Shown here: in pieces, positions 633 to 57,555 of the stretch
Layout of the letters: every line of letters begins with the position of its first letter
Position numbering within the stretch: the stretch's first letter is position 1
Origin: Alphaproteobacteria bacterium
GTDB lineage: Bacteria; Pseudomonadota; Alphaproteobacteria; JAVJVX01
DNA length: 64,000 nt
Direction of reading: 5' to 3'
Assembly: GCA_040220875.1 (NCBI GenBank)
Contig: JAVJVX010000005.1
Coordinates: 585,665 to 649,664, forward strand
Notes under the pieces: model-generated
Told to the model about the DNA's origin: nothing
What the model saw: the letters and a program-made list of their open reading frames with translations, nothing else
Databases searched by the model: none
Position numbers and translations under genes: made by a program

Positions 633-1546
633 TGCGGCCGCTACTCGTCACGTTGCGTGAGGATGAGCCCCTTGCTGAGCCGTTGGCAAAGGCAATCGGC
701 GGCGAGTTCTCACAATTGCAGATCCGTAAGTTCCCGGACGGCGAGACCTATCTACGGTATGCAACGTCGCCTGAAGGGCGGCCGGTCGCCATCCTCTGCT
801 CCTTGGACCGGCCGGACAAAAAGTTCCTGCCCCTTCTGTTCGCTGCCGGCACGGCCCGGGACCTCGGCGCAGCGTCCATCGGACTGATCAGTCCCTATCT
901 CGCTTACATGCGGCAGGATAAGCGGTTTAGGCCGGGTGAAGCCGTAACTTCGACTTGTTTCGCCGAAGTGCTGTCACGGCAGATCGACTGGCTCGTCACG
1001 GTCGACCCGCACCTCCACCGCCGACGTGCGCTTTCCGAGATCTATGCCGTACCGGCACTCGCGCTACATGCGGCGCCGCTGATTGCGGCTTGGATTCGGG
1101 AAACCGTCGATCGGCCCCTGCTCATTGGCCCGGACGCAGAGAGCGAGCAATGGGTGTCGGCGGTCGCGCGTGATGCGAATGCGCCCCATCTCGTGCTCGA
1201 AAAGAACCGGCACGGTGATCGAGATGTTGAGGTCTCAGTTCCCGAGGTCGAGCGGTGGCGGGGCCATACGCCAGTGCTCGTGGACGACATCGTGTCGACG
1301 GCGCGCACCATGATCGAGACGGTCGGTCACGTGATGCACGCCGGCATGCAACCGCCAACGTGCGTTGCCGTCCATGGGCTTTTCGCGGACAAGGCCTACC
1401 CCGAACTCCTGGCTGCGGGGGCCAGACAAGTCGTGACGACCAACACGATTGCGCACGAATCGAACGCCATCGACATTTCCGGCCTTCTGGCCGAAGGAAT
1501 CAAGAGGATCACAATGGAAAGTAATGGCGGCGCGCTTGACCGTTAA
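629..1546 (+). CDS. Ribose-phosphate pyrophosphokinase-like protein (divergent PRPP synthetase)
   Basis: A protein of 305 residues in the PRPP synthetase / phosphoribosyltransferase fold. Visible motifs: FPDGE at 35-39, YMRQDKRF at 93-100 (nucleotide-binding Arg-Gln-Asp), DPHLH at 126-130 in place of the classical DLHAxQ flexible region, and the PRPP loop VLVDDIVSTART at 217-228. The family makes 5-phosphoribosyl diphosphate from ribose-5-phosphate and ATP. The PRPP loop reads DDIVSTART rather than the usual DDxxxTGGT, so this is an atypical paralogue and not obviously the housekeeping Prs. ATG codons at 629 and 632 are both possible starts, and both overlap the upstream stop. Linkage to the phosphorylase suggests a shared ribose-phosphate salvage role; this is an inference. 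Confidence 0.85.
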   Translation: MMRPLLVTLREDEPLAEPLAKAIGGEFSQLQIRKFPDGETYLRYATSPEGRPVAILCSLDRPDKKFLPLLFAAGTARDLGAASIGLISPYLAYMRQDKRFRPGEAVTSTCFAEVLSRQIDWLVTVDPHLHRRRALSEIYAVPALALHAAPLIAAWIRETVDRPLLIGPDAESEQWVSAVARDANAPHLVLEKNRHGDRDVEVSVPEVERWRGHTPVLVDDIVSTARTMIETVGHVMHAGMQPPTCVAVHGLFADKAYPELLAAGARQVVTTNTIAHESNAIDISGLLAEGIKRITMESNGGALDR

Positions 1547-54759: not shown

Positions 54760-56121
54760 CTACCGGCCCAGCAAGCCGGGCGGCAGGCCCGGCAGATCGC
54801 CCGGAGGCAACTGACCTTTCTTGCTCATCTTGCCGACGCGCTTCATCATCGTGTTCATCTGGTCGAACTGCTTGAGAAGCTTGTTGACGTCCTGCACCGA
54901 CGTGCCGGAGCCGGCGGCGATACGTTTCTTGCGCGAGGCCTTGATCAGGCCGGGGCGACGGCGCTCATCCCTGGTCATCGACTGGATGATCGCTTCCTGG
55001 CGCCTGAGCGCCGCCTCGTCGAGACCGCCCGGCATCTGCTTCTTGAGACTGCCCGCGCCGGGCAGCATTTTCAGCACCCCCGAGAGGCCGCCCATTTTCT
55101 GAACCTGGCGCAACTGCTGAAGAAAATCGTCGAGATCCATGCGCCCCTTGGTTGCCTTGCGCGCGATCCTCTCGGCCTCTTCCTGAGTGACCGACTGGGA
55201 CGCTTTTTCCACCAGGCTGACGACATCCCCCTGGCCGAGGATGCGGCCCGCGATCCGGTCCGGATGGAAGACTTCGAGCGCATCGGTTTTCTCGCCCGTG
55301 CCGAGAAACTTGATCGGCTGCCCTGTAACCCAGCGCATGGACAGCGCCGCGCCGCCCCGTGCGTCACCATCCACACGGGTCAGCACAATGCCGCTAAGGC
55401 CGACGCGTTCGTTGAATGTCCTGGCCGTGGCGACAGCGTCCTGGCCGGTCATGGAATCCGCCACAAGCAGCGTCTCGGCAGGCGAGGTCGTCGCCTTGAC
55501 CTGTTCGAGCTCGTTCATGAGGTTTTCGTCGATTGCGAGCCGGCCGGCCGTGTCGAGAAGCACCACATCGAAACCCTGAAGCCGGCCGGCTTCCATCGCA
55601 CGGCGCGCGATCGCGAGCGGCATTTCGCCCGCGACGATGGGAAGCGTGGCGATACCGGTTTGCTGACCAAGAGTCTTGAGCTGTTCCTGAGCGGCCGGGC
55701 GGTAAACGTCGAGCGAGGCCATGAGCACTTTTTTGCGCTCGCTCTCGCTCAACCGCCTGGCGAGCTTGGCCGTCGTCGTCGTCTTGCCCGAGCCCTGCAG
55801 GCCGACCATGAGGATCGCAACCGGCGGATTGGCCCGAAGATTGATCGCCGCCGCCTCGGCGCCCAGCATCGCGACAAGCTGATCGTGCACCAGCTTGATG
55901 ACCATCTGTCCCGGCGTGACCGACCGCAGCACATCCTCGCCGACCGCCTTCTCGCGCACATCCTCGATCAGCGCCTTGACCACGGGCAGCGCGACGTCGG
56001 CCTCGAGCAGCGCCACGCGGATTTCGCGCAGCGCGCTCGTGACATCGCTCTCCGACAAGCGCCCGCGGCGGGTCAGCTTGCCGAAAACCTCGCCCAAGCG
56101 GTCTGTGAGACTGTCAAACAC
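54760..56121 (-). CDS. ffh: Signal recognition particle protein Ffh
   Basis: 453 residues. N domain, then GTPase G1 GLQGSGKTTTTAKLA, DTAGRL and TRVDGDARGGAALS, and a Met-rich M domain from about 300 (MDLDDFLQQLRQVQKMGGLSGVLKMLPG). It binds signal peptides and SRP RNA and meets FtsY, whose gene lies 2.7 kb away on the other strand. It has a long leader of about 150 bases. Confidence 0.98.
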   Translation of the reverse strand: MFDSLTDRLGEVFGKLTRRGRLSESDVTSALREIRVALLEADVALPVVKALIEDVREKAVGEDVLRSVTPGQMVIKLVHDQLVAMLGAEAAAINLRANPPVAILMVGLQGSGKTTTTAKLARRLSESERKKVLMASLDVYRPAAQEQLKTLGQQTGIATLPIVAGEMPLAIARRAMEAGRLQGFDVVLLDTAGRLAIDENLMNELEQVKATTSPAETLLVADSMTGQDAVATARTFNERVGLSGIVLTRVDGDARGGAALSMRWVTGQPIKFLGTGEKTDALEVFHPDRIAGRILGQGDVVSLVEKASQSVTQEEAERIARKATKGRMDLDDFLQQLRQVQKMGGLSGVLKMLPGAGSLKKQMPGGLDEAALRRQEAIIQSMTRDERRRPGLIKASRKKRIAAGSGTSVQDVNKLLKQFDQMNTMMKRVGKMSKKGQLPPGDLPGLPPGLLGR

Positions 56122-56276
56122 GGGCCCTTCGGCTCCCCTCGATCCTTCTCATCCGGATGGTCTCCGCCGCCACCGGCTGTCACCGCGCAAACGCCGAGGG
56201 CGCCGGTGCGCGCAACGCGCGGACCGGCGGACCTCCTCGGAGGCAGGGAACACCCTGTCAGTCGGAAGATGCCGGG

Positions 56277-56305
56277 GTTTTAGGCGCAAGCCGGGGCGGC
56301 GTCAA
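56277..56305 (-). promoter_or_regulatory. Candidate promoter of ffh
   Basis: On the minus strand TTGACG (56305-56300) and TAAAAC (56282-56277) with a 17-base spacer. Transcription would start near 56270, giving a leader of about 150 bases that is G+C-rich and rich in inverted repeats. Confidence 0.5.
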
Positions 56306-56404
56306 GCAAACCCCGGAACCCCGTCGGGCCAGGACGGGACGCGTTACCGATCTATCGTTCCAAATTAAGATTTGAAGGATTCCAACCATTTACCCCCTTT
56401 ATTG

Positions 56405-56430
56405 TCAATTTATGGGCAGCAATAAATTGA
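56405..56430. repeat. 9-bp inverted repeat upstream of the sRNA candidate
   Basis: TCAATTTAT and ATAAATTGA are perfect inverted copies separated by eight bases. They lie in an A+T-rich island (about 56345-56455) that contrasts strongly with the surroundings, just before a TATAAT hexamer at 56444-56449. A regulator-binding site is possible. Confidence 0.5.
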
Positions 56431-56477
56431 TAAAACTCATGATTATAATTTGACCGGCGCCTAGTATCGTGTCTTTC

Positions 56478-56589
56478 AGCGACCCGGGGGGTCCTCCTCC
56501 TCCCAGCCCATGAGGTTCTCCCTCACTCCCGGGTCACCCAAAGGAACCCCGCCTGCTGGCGCCCCCCGACCGGCAGGCGGGGTTTTTTT
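56478..56589 (+). ncRNA. Candidate CCUCCUCCC-motif small RNA with intrinsic terminator
   Basis: Between ffh and dapF. A stem GACCCGGG (56481-56488) / CCCGGGTC (56528-56535) encloses a pyrimidine-rich loop with CCTCCTCCTCCC (56493-56504), complementary to Shine-Dalgarno sequences, and an inner small hairpin TGAGG/CCTCA. It is followed by a strong terminator: CCCCGCCTGC (56547-56556) pairs with GCAGGCGGGG (56573-56582), then seven T. This matches the design of the alphaproteobacterial CCUCCUCCC-motif (cuckoo) sRNAs. The 5' end is inferred; TATAAT at 56444-56449 would start the RNA somewhat earlier, but no matching -35 is evident. Confidence 0.65.
56547..56589 (+). terminator. Intrinsic terminator of the sRNA candidate
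   Basis: A 10-bp G+C-rich perfect stem extended by three further pairs, followed by TTTTTTT. It stands 64 bases before the dapF start with no gene in front of it on this strand, so it implies an independent short transcript. Confidence 0.85.
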
Positions 56590-56652
56590 GACGGGAGCGC
56601 CGGAAAGCAGACAGAATTGGATTTTCCCCCATCGCGGCCCTATAAGGCCGAC

Positions 56653-57555
56653 ATGATGGCCGATCTCGACCGCCAGCCCCCGCCCCCGGCTTCGGCCGGC
56701 CCAACCCGCTTCTGGAAGATGCACGGGCTCGGCAACGATTTCGTCATTCTGGACGGCAGGGCGGGCGGCCTTGCCCTGACGCAAGCGGGCGCGCGGCGGC
56801 TGGCCGACCGCCATTTCGGGATCGGCTGCGACCAGGTGATTGCTCTGTTCCCGGCGACGGAGACCGGCGCCCAAGTGGCCATGCGCATCTTCAATGCCGA
56901 CGGTTCGGAAGTGATGGCCTGCGGCAACGCCACGCGCTGCGTCGCCCGGCTCCTGTTCGAGGAGCGGGCAGGACAGGACGGCCACGTCACCATAGAAACG
57001 GGCGCCGGTCTTTTGGCGGCCTTCCCGGCAGCCTTCGGCGACAAATTCATCACCGTCGATATGGGCGTCGCCCGGACCGGGTGGCGGGAAATCCCGCTCT
57101 CTTCCGATGTCGACACGCTGCACCTGCCGCTTGCGGCGGACGGGTTGCGCGACGGTGTCGCTGTCAGCATGGGCAATCCGCATGCGGTTTTTTTCGTCGA
57201 CGACGTGGCGGCGGTCGATCTCGCGCACCTCGGCCCCCGGCTCGAGAACGATCCCCTGTTCCCCGAGCGCGCCAATATCGGCGTGGCCCAGATCACGGGC
57301 AAGGACCGGATGCGGCTTCGCGTCTGGGAGCGGGGCGCCGGCCTCACACTGGCCTGCGGCACGGGCGCCTCGGCCGCGGCGGTGGCCGCAAGGCGCCGGG
57401 GGCTGGCCCGGGGCAGGATCGAGATAACCCTCGATGGCGGCACGCTCTGGGTCGAGACGGACGAGCGCGATCATGTCCTGATGACCGGGCCGGCCGCGCT
57501 GTCGTTTACGGGCACCCTCGGGGCGGCGCTTCAGGCAGGGACGGAGACACCATGA
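56653..57555 (+). CDS. dapF: Diaminopimelate epimerase
   Basis: 300 residues from ATG 56653; ATG 56656 is equally possible. RFWKMHGLGNDFVILDGR opens the enzyme; the two catalytic cysteines are in MACGNATRC and LACGTGASAAAVAA. It converts LL- to meso-diaminopimelate for lysine and peptidoglycan. First gene of dapF-mtaB-ftsY-ispZ, all overlapping by a few bases. Confidence 0.98.
   Translation: MMADLDRQPPPPASAGPTRFWKMHGLGNDFVILDGRAGGLALTQAGARRLADRHFGIGCDQVIALFPATETGAQVAMRIFNADGSEVMACGNATRCVARLLFEERAGQDGHVTIETGAGLLAAFPAAFGDKFITVDMGVARTGWREIPLSSDVDTLHLPLAADGLRDGVAVSMGNPHAVFFVDDVAAVDLAHLGPRLENDPLFPERANIGVAQITGKDRMRLRVWERGAGLTLACGTGASAAAVAARRRGLARGRIEITLDGGTLWVETDERDHVLMTGPAALSFTGTLGAALQAGTETP

Follow-up and report, generated by a model that had tools for sequence, protein, structure and literature searches.

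A candidate lineage-specific small RNA with an open pyrimidine loop in the ffh-dapF intergenic region of an alphaproteobacterium

Results and Discussion

The region between ffh and dapF in this alphaproteobacterial genome probably contains a transcription unit of its own at positions 56478-56589 of the window, i.e., the whole 64,000-nucleotide stretch of DNA that was analyzed; this unit is most likely a small RNA (sRNA) specific to the lineage. The two genes are divergent around the candidate, with ffh on the minus strand (start at 56121) and dapF on the plus strand (ATG at 56653). We infer a separate plus-strand transcript ending at 56589 because the sequence is an insertion between two conserved promoters and is closed by a very strong orphan terminator, the strongest in the window. 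The features of the region are collected in Table 1. No credible gene was found over the element in the window, in agreement with the sequence-only reading that had considered it unexplained by a gene. Two trivial assignments were ruled out: a small open reading frame from the ATG at 56510 lacks a ribosome site and reads through the terminator, and a repeat element is incompatible with the presence of a single copy in the genome, a copy number that had been correctly anticipated.

Table 1. Features of the ffh-dapF region (positions are those of the window)
Feature	Position	Strand	Basis or remarks
ffh leader RNA motif (RF01793-like)	56197-56242	-	29.2 bits, gathering score 35; same architecture in relatives
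ffh promoter, TTGACG-N17-TAAAAC	56277-56305	-	PWM score 5.6; CTTGAC kept in relatives with divergent ffh-dapF
A+T-rich stretch, presumed promoter/regulatory region	56355-56475	+	About 35-37% GC vs. 65% GC in the window
12-nt inverted repeat, TTGTCAATTTAT-N8-ATAAATTGATAA	56402-56433		11/12 complementary
Closing stem, 5' arm, GACCCGGG	56481-56488	+	Sequence and fold
Pyrimidine loop, CCUCCUCCUCCCA, presumed anti-Shine-Dalgarno seed	56493-56505	+	Predicted unpaired
Inner hairpin, UGAGG-UUCUC-CCUCA	56511-56525	+	Predicted fold, within the 8-bp stem
Closing stem, 3' arm, CCCGGGTC (RNA CCCGGGUC)	56528-56535	+	Sequence and fold
Intrinsic terminator, long G+C-rich hairpin and seven T	56544-56589	+	-34 to -37 kcal/mol, z -6.1
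dapF promoter, TGGATT-N17-TATAAG	56618-56646	+	Best PWM score, 11.9; conserved arrangement

Fold of the candidate and its pyrimidine loop

The minimum-energy fold of 56478-56589 is a three-way junction, not a simple hairpin, in which the 8-bp stem formed by GACCCGGG and CCCGGGTC encloses a short helix with the pyrimidine loop as well as the inner hairpin. This stem had been described as perfect and composed of G+C; it is perfect over its 8 bp, but only seven of the eight pairs are G-C and the remaining one is A-U. The pyrimidine loop was found as reported, with the tract CCTCCTCCTCCC (CCUCCUCCUCCC in the RNA) at 56493-56504. The tract occurs once in the window when both strands are scanned, and the bases 56493-56505 have unpaired probabilities between 0.68 and 0.99 in the predicted fold. 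The entire candidate folds at -63.3 kcal/mol (z -4.7), and the 5' hairpin alone at -25.8 kcal/mol (z -1.6). Seventy of 1000 shuffles were as stable as this hairpin, and 13% of the 61-nt stretches of the window match it. The stability of the 5' hairpin is no greater than its composition predicts, and nearly all the statistical signal of the candidate comes from the terminator.

The 9-mer CCTCCTCCC was found at 21 sites in the 2.54-Mb genome vs. 22 sites for the reversed control. The motif is at background frequency, is not enriched, and is unremarkable by itself. The other 20 sites are in long open frames or ribosome-site-like positions, and/or are not followed by a terminator; among all 21, only the candidate is intergenic, has the motif unpaired, and is also followed by a terminator. 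At one of the other sites (L121, about 1450-1510, minus strand) the match can be read as the ribosome site for a small reverse-strand gene with a frame of about 46 amino acids, which looks membrane-protein-like and apparently starts with TTG.

The reading that we prefer, held tentatively and at somewhat below even confidence, is that of a single-copy lineage-specific sRNA whose open loop would pair with the Shine-Dalgarno sequences of target mRNAs. A plus-strand transcript of roughly 110-135 nt would start within the A+T-rich region, at a promoter that is activator-dependent or not of the housekeeping type, and would end at the intrinsic terminator. Its 5' domain would display one unpaired CCUCCUCCUCCC loop, which could base-pair with strong Shine-Dalgarno sequences of the GGAGGAGG type and so block ribosome binding in the manner of NfeR1, CcsR, and AbcR. 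Repression by pairing has been characterized for NfeR1 acting on ntrB (PMC10746234), and by analogy we infer that the candidate would repress its mRNAs in a similar way. A pattern search of the genome for GGAGGAGG-N3-9-ATG returned 14 sites vs. one for the reversed control. Such starts are in use, and therefore complementary targets exist. The GGAGGAGG genes with long frames look like those of dCTP deaminase (dcd), a Rieske ring-hydroxylating oxygenase, a DUF1329 protein, an FAD-binding oxidase, and an S24-type repressor, names that were given by reading the sequences and not by database search.

It is also possible, if somewhat unlikely, that the transcript is real, short, and independent but acts through another part or mechanism, the CCUCCUCC loop being incidental to the G+C-rich composition. 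Such an RNA would be in keeping with a terminator that is the only statistically exceptional part, with the background frequency of CCTCCTCCC, and with the low information content of the 5' stem, in which CCCGGG is self-complementary. However, no longer tract of this kind occurs in the window, this one is predicted to be open, and none of the other genomic copies is so positioned.

Terminator, promoters, and length of the ffh-dapF interval

The separate strong terminator with seven T noticed in the initial inspection was fully confirmed. It consists of a hairpin at 56544-56585 and a T run at 56583-56589; taken alone, it folds at -37.5 kcal/mol (z -6.1), none of 1000 shuffles was as stable, and no other hairpin-plus-T-run of the 64-kb window matches it in stability. 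Same-strand gene ends are absent for about 7.6 kb upstream. The apical region of the hairpin is GGCGCCCCCCGACC, which has no CCUCC-type motif.

In relatives with a divergent ffh-dapF gap, the ffh promoter is CTTGAC-N17-TAA and the dapF promoter, near the ATG, is TGGACT-N17/18-TATAA. The dapF element was found in 48 of 80 relatives (loci L033-L112) vs. 2.3% of control stretches. In the genome under study the dapF promoter is located downstream of the terminator and ends 6 bases short of the ATG. Thirteen relatives with ffh directly beside dapF were used to compare the distance between the two -35 boxes; L101 was left out, its boxes being unresolved, and the interval is 312 bp here vs. 30-161 bp in the other 12. 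The candidate occupies the extra interval, between the two conserved promoters. Since the interval between conserved promoters is longer and includes a terminator of its own, the extra sequence appears to have been inserted. In the relatives, TGGACT-N17/18-TATAA stops about 7-11 bases before the dapF start codon, an arrangement that suggests that the dapF mRNA may be leaderless or nearly so across deep alphaproteobacterial lineages.

The promoter of the candidate sRNA would be expected within the A+T-rich stretch. A PWM scan of 56355-56475 found no housekeeping-type promoter scoring above shuffles, and the TATAAT at 56444-56449 is not accompanied by a recognizable -35 box. The missing recognizable promoter is the chief weakness of the case for an independent transcript. 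The proposal of a small-RNA gene stands as the best reading of an orphan terminator upstream of the conserved promoter of dapF. The same stretch includes the dyad TTGTCAATTTAT-N8-ATAAATTGATAA, and a comparable repeat was present in 1.2% of the shuffles of the region. No further copies were found in the genome with up to three mismatches allowed. The dyad is a possible operator for a regulator.

Searches for homologues and cis alternatives

All comparison genomes were outside the order of the host, which is represented in the comparison set by the host genome alone. A DNA search for a candidate homologue in 58 relatives produced scattered weak matches only, mostly within the terminator hairpin. 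A covariance model built from the single sequence gave nothing convincing in 385 genomes of the class, where one other match reached 28.7 bits (E 0.09), and no homologue at 80 loci around the dapF of relatives (50-64% identity). This model also picks up the opposite-strand shadow of the candidate's own terminator. Zero matches were obtained in plasmids and phages. Motif matches upstream of dapF at five loci (L045, L067, L098, L106, and L046) were rejected; they are short CTCCTCC/CCTCCCCC stretches, some in coding sequence, and none of the five loci has a motif-exposing hairpin plus terminator upstream of dapF. Conservation of the stem or the loop, to which the initial reading had looked for support, was seen in none of the relatives, all of them compared at great distance and outside the host's order; under the refuting condition set in that reading, this weighs against the proposed cuckoo lineage. 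Even a genuine sRNA specific to one lineage would be expected to be missing at such distances, and the absence neither proves nor disproves function.

The absence from all relatives, together with a 5' hairpin within chance and a negative promoter search, would also be expected if there were no functional transcript and the element were a fortuitous combination of inverted repeat, T run, and G+C-rich hairpin in intergenic DNA that has expanded. We consider this unlikely, as the terminator (-34 to -37 kcal/mol, seven T) is beyond 1000 of 1000 shuffles and adjoins the A+T-rich stretch, in which the dyad is significant.

The main cis alternative is attenuation of dapF, in which an RNA started upstream would fold as a terminator or an antiterminator and tune read-through into dapF. 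The terminator precedes the dapF ATG by 64 nt on the same strand, and the 5' end of the element can pair with the 5' arm of the terminator before the 3' arm is made (-45 kcal/mol at 56565). However, the full fold favors the terminator by a wide margin (-68 kcal/mol), and no leader peptide with a ribosome site was seen. Attenuation is disfavored, and in our view improbable, because the conserved promoter of dapF is located downstream of the terminator, directly before the ATG, as in the 48 relatives mentioned above.

Comparison with ar14/cuckoo and other known RNAs

The sequence-only reading had suggested that the candidate may represent a lineage of its own within the cuckoo/CcsR class, and this assignment is not supported. 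At gathering level, Rfam matched only a tRNA in the window. The best sense-strand Rfam match of the candidate is ar14 (RF02344), with the loop and the terminator in register, at 27.5 bits vs. a curated cut-off of 58.8 bits; the covariance search suggested earlier therefore did not reach the cut-off. A second site in the host genome (L032) reaches 25.6 bits and has neither a CCUCC motif in the matched stretch nor a terminal T run. The RF02344 cut-off was passed by none of the 385 class genomes, though several carry obvious members, and it is too strict for mapping the cuckoo family. Cuckoo-type RNAs with two to four CUCCUCC loops that score below the cut-off were observed in genomes of other families, though not in the host, at L135, L160, L136, L161, L140, L162, L142, L143, L151, L152, and L153, several of them as neighboring pairs.

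These loci are consistent with the literature, in which the cuckoo family has three or four hairpins, each with CCUCCUCCC (PMC3927594; PMC10746234). The candidate resembles ar14/cuckoo RNAs such as NfeR1 of Sinorhizobium (S.) meliloti in its unpaired CCUCCUCCC loop complementary to the Shine-Dalgarno sequence, its Rho-independent terminator at the 3' end, its intergenic location, and a length of about 110-125 nt. In contrast to them, it bears a single motif loop where they have two to four (the loop of its inner hairpin is UUCUC), and it folds as a three-way junction rather than as simple motif-tipped hairpins. Most recognizable ar14-type members (e.g., L135, L140, L142, L151, L153, and L158) bear the motif in the last hairpin too, unlike the candidate. 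The CcsR RNAs (CcsR1-4) are arranged in tandem and processed from the transcript of the DUF1127 gene ccaF1 (PMC10253847). The candidate shares with the CcsR1-4/CcaF1 system of Rhodobacter sphaeroides the presumed anti-Shine-Dalgarno type and the alphaproteobacterial host but is present in a single copy. No DUF1127 (CcaF) gene was found in its genome, where the best match (11.7 bits vs. a cut-off of 23.3) is inside a 299-amino-acid frame; the apparent lack of a CcaF-type partner was thus confirmed. Membership in ar14/cuckoo is not supported, because the score is far below the cut-off, there is a single motif loop, the terminator loop is motif-free, and DUF1127 is absent. A divergent true member (NfeR1, CcsR) reduced to one motif loop after loss of the DUF1127 partner, which would fit the best sense-strand match in register and a cut-off that misses clear members, is very improbable in view of these differences and of the L032 site, which looks spurious and yet scores nearly as high.

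The alpha-r8 sRNAs (Caulobacter SisA-D) have a single short pyrimidine anti-Shine-Dalgarno seed, as presumed for the candidate, and a Rho-independent terminator. In alpha-r8 the seed is single-stranded, has the sequence UUUCCUCCCU, and follows a weak hairpin (PMC12559287), whereas the presumed seed of the candidate is enclosed by the 5' stem and lacks UUU. No alpha-r8 match to the candidate was obtained in Rfam.

A more specific form of the preferred reading, which we regard as rather doubtful, is that of a convergent, order-specific anti-Shine-Dalgarno sRNA with a single seed that would do the job of cuckoo in a lineage that has neither ar14 nor CcaF and would be expressed via the TTGTCAATTTAT-N8-ATAAATTGATAA dyad. 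If the candidate does act in this way, it would show that Alphaproteobacteria have repeatedly given rise to anti-Shine-Dalgarno sRNAs that are not of the cuckoo family and lack a DUF1127 RNA-binding partner. It would also be among the few candidate regulatory RNAs of a lineage for which one genome was available here. On present evidence, it is a single candidate without conservation and of modest interest.

An RNA motif in the ffh leader

A second structured element, the RF01793-like motif, is in the same intergenic region as the candidate but lies 240 bp from it on the other strand and is part of the ffh leader. This motif was reported in 2009 as absent from Rhodospirillales (PMC2704228). In the relatives the ffh hairpin consists of 7 bp, a CC/GC internal loop, 4 bp, and a short loop, and its stem shows two-sided changes (CGCCAGU/ACUGGCG, CGUCCGU/ACGGGCG, and GGCUGGU/ACCGGCC). 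Most of the 27 loci examined have a hairpin of this type 28-103 nt upstream of ffh. A perfect 11-pair motif was found in 18 of the 27 vs. 6.5% of controls, with two of these 18 (L069 and L082) being unrelated hairpins picked by the scan. None of the 13 ffh loci run through Rfam passed the RF01793 gathering score. Judging from these hairpins, the motif appears to be widespread upstream of ffh in Rhodospirillales-like genomes. The loci with the motif are L034, L040, L045, L050, L059, L064, L065, L068, L070, L075, L086, L094, L095, L104, L107, and L108.
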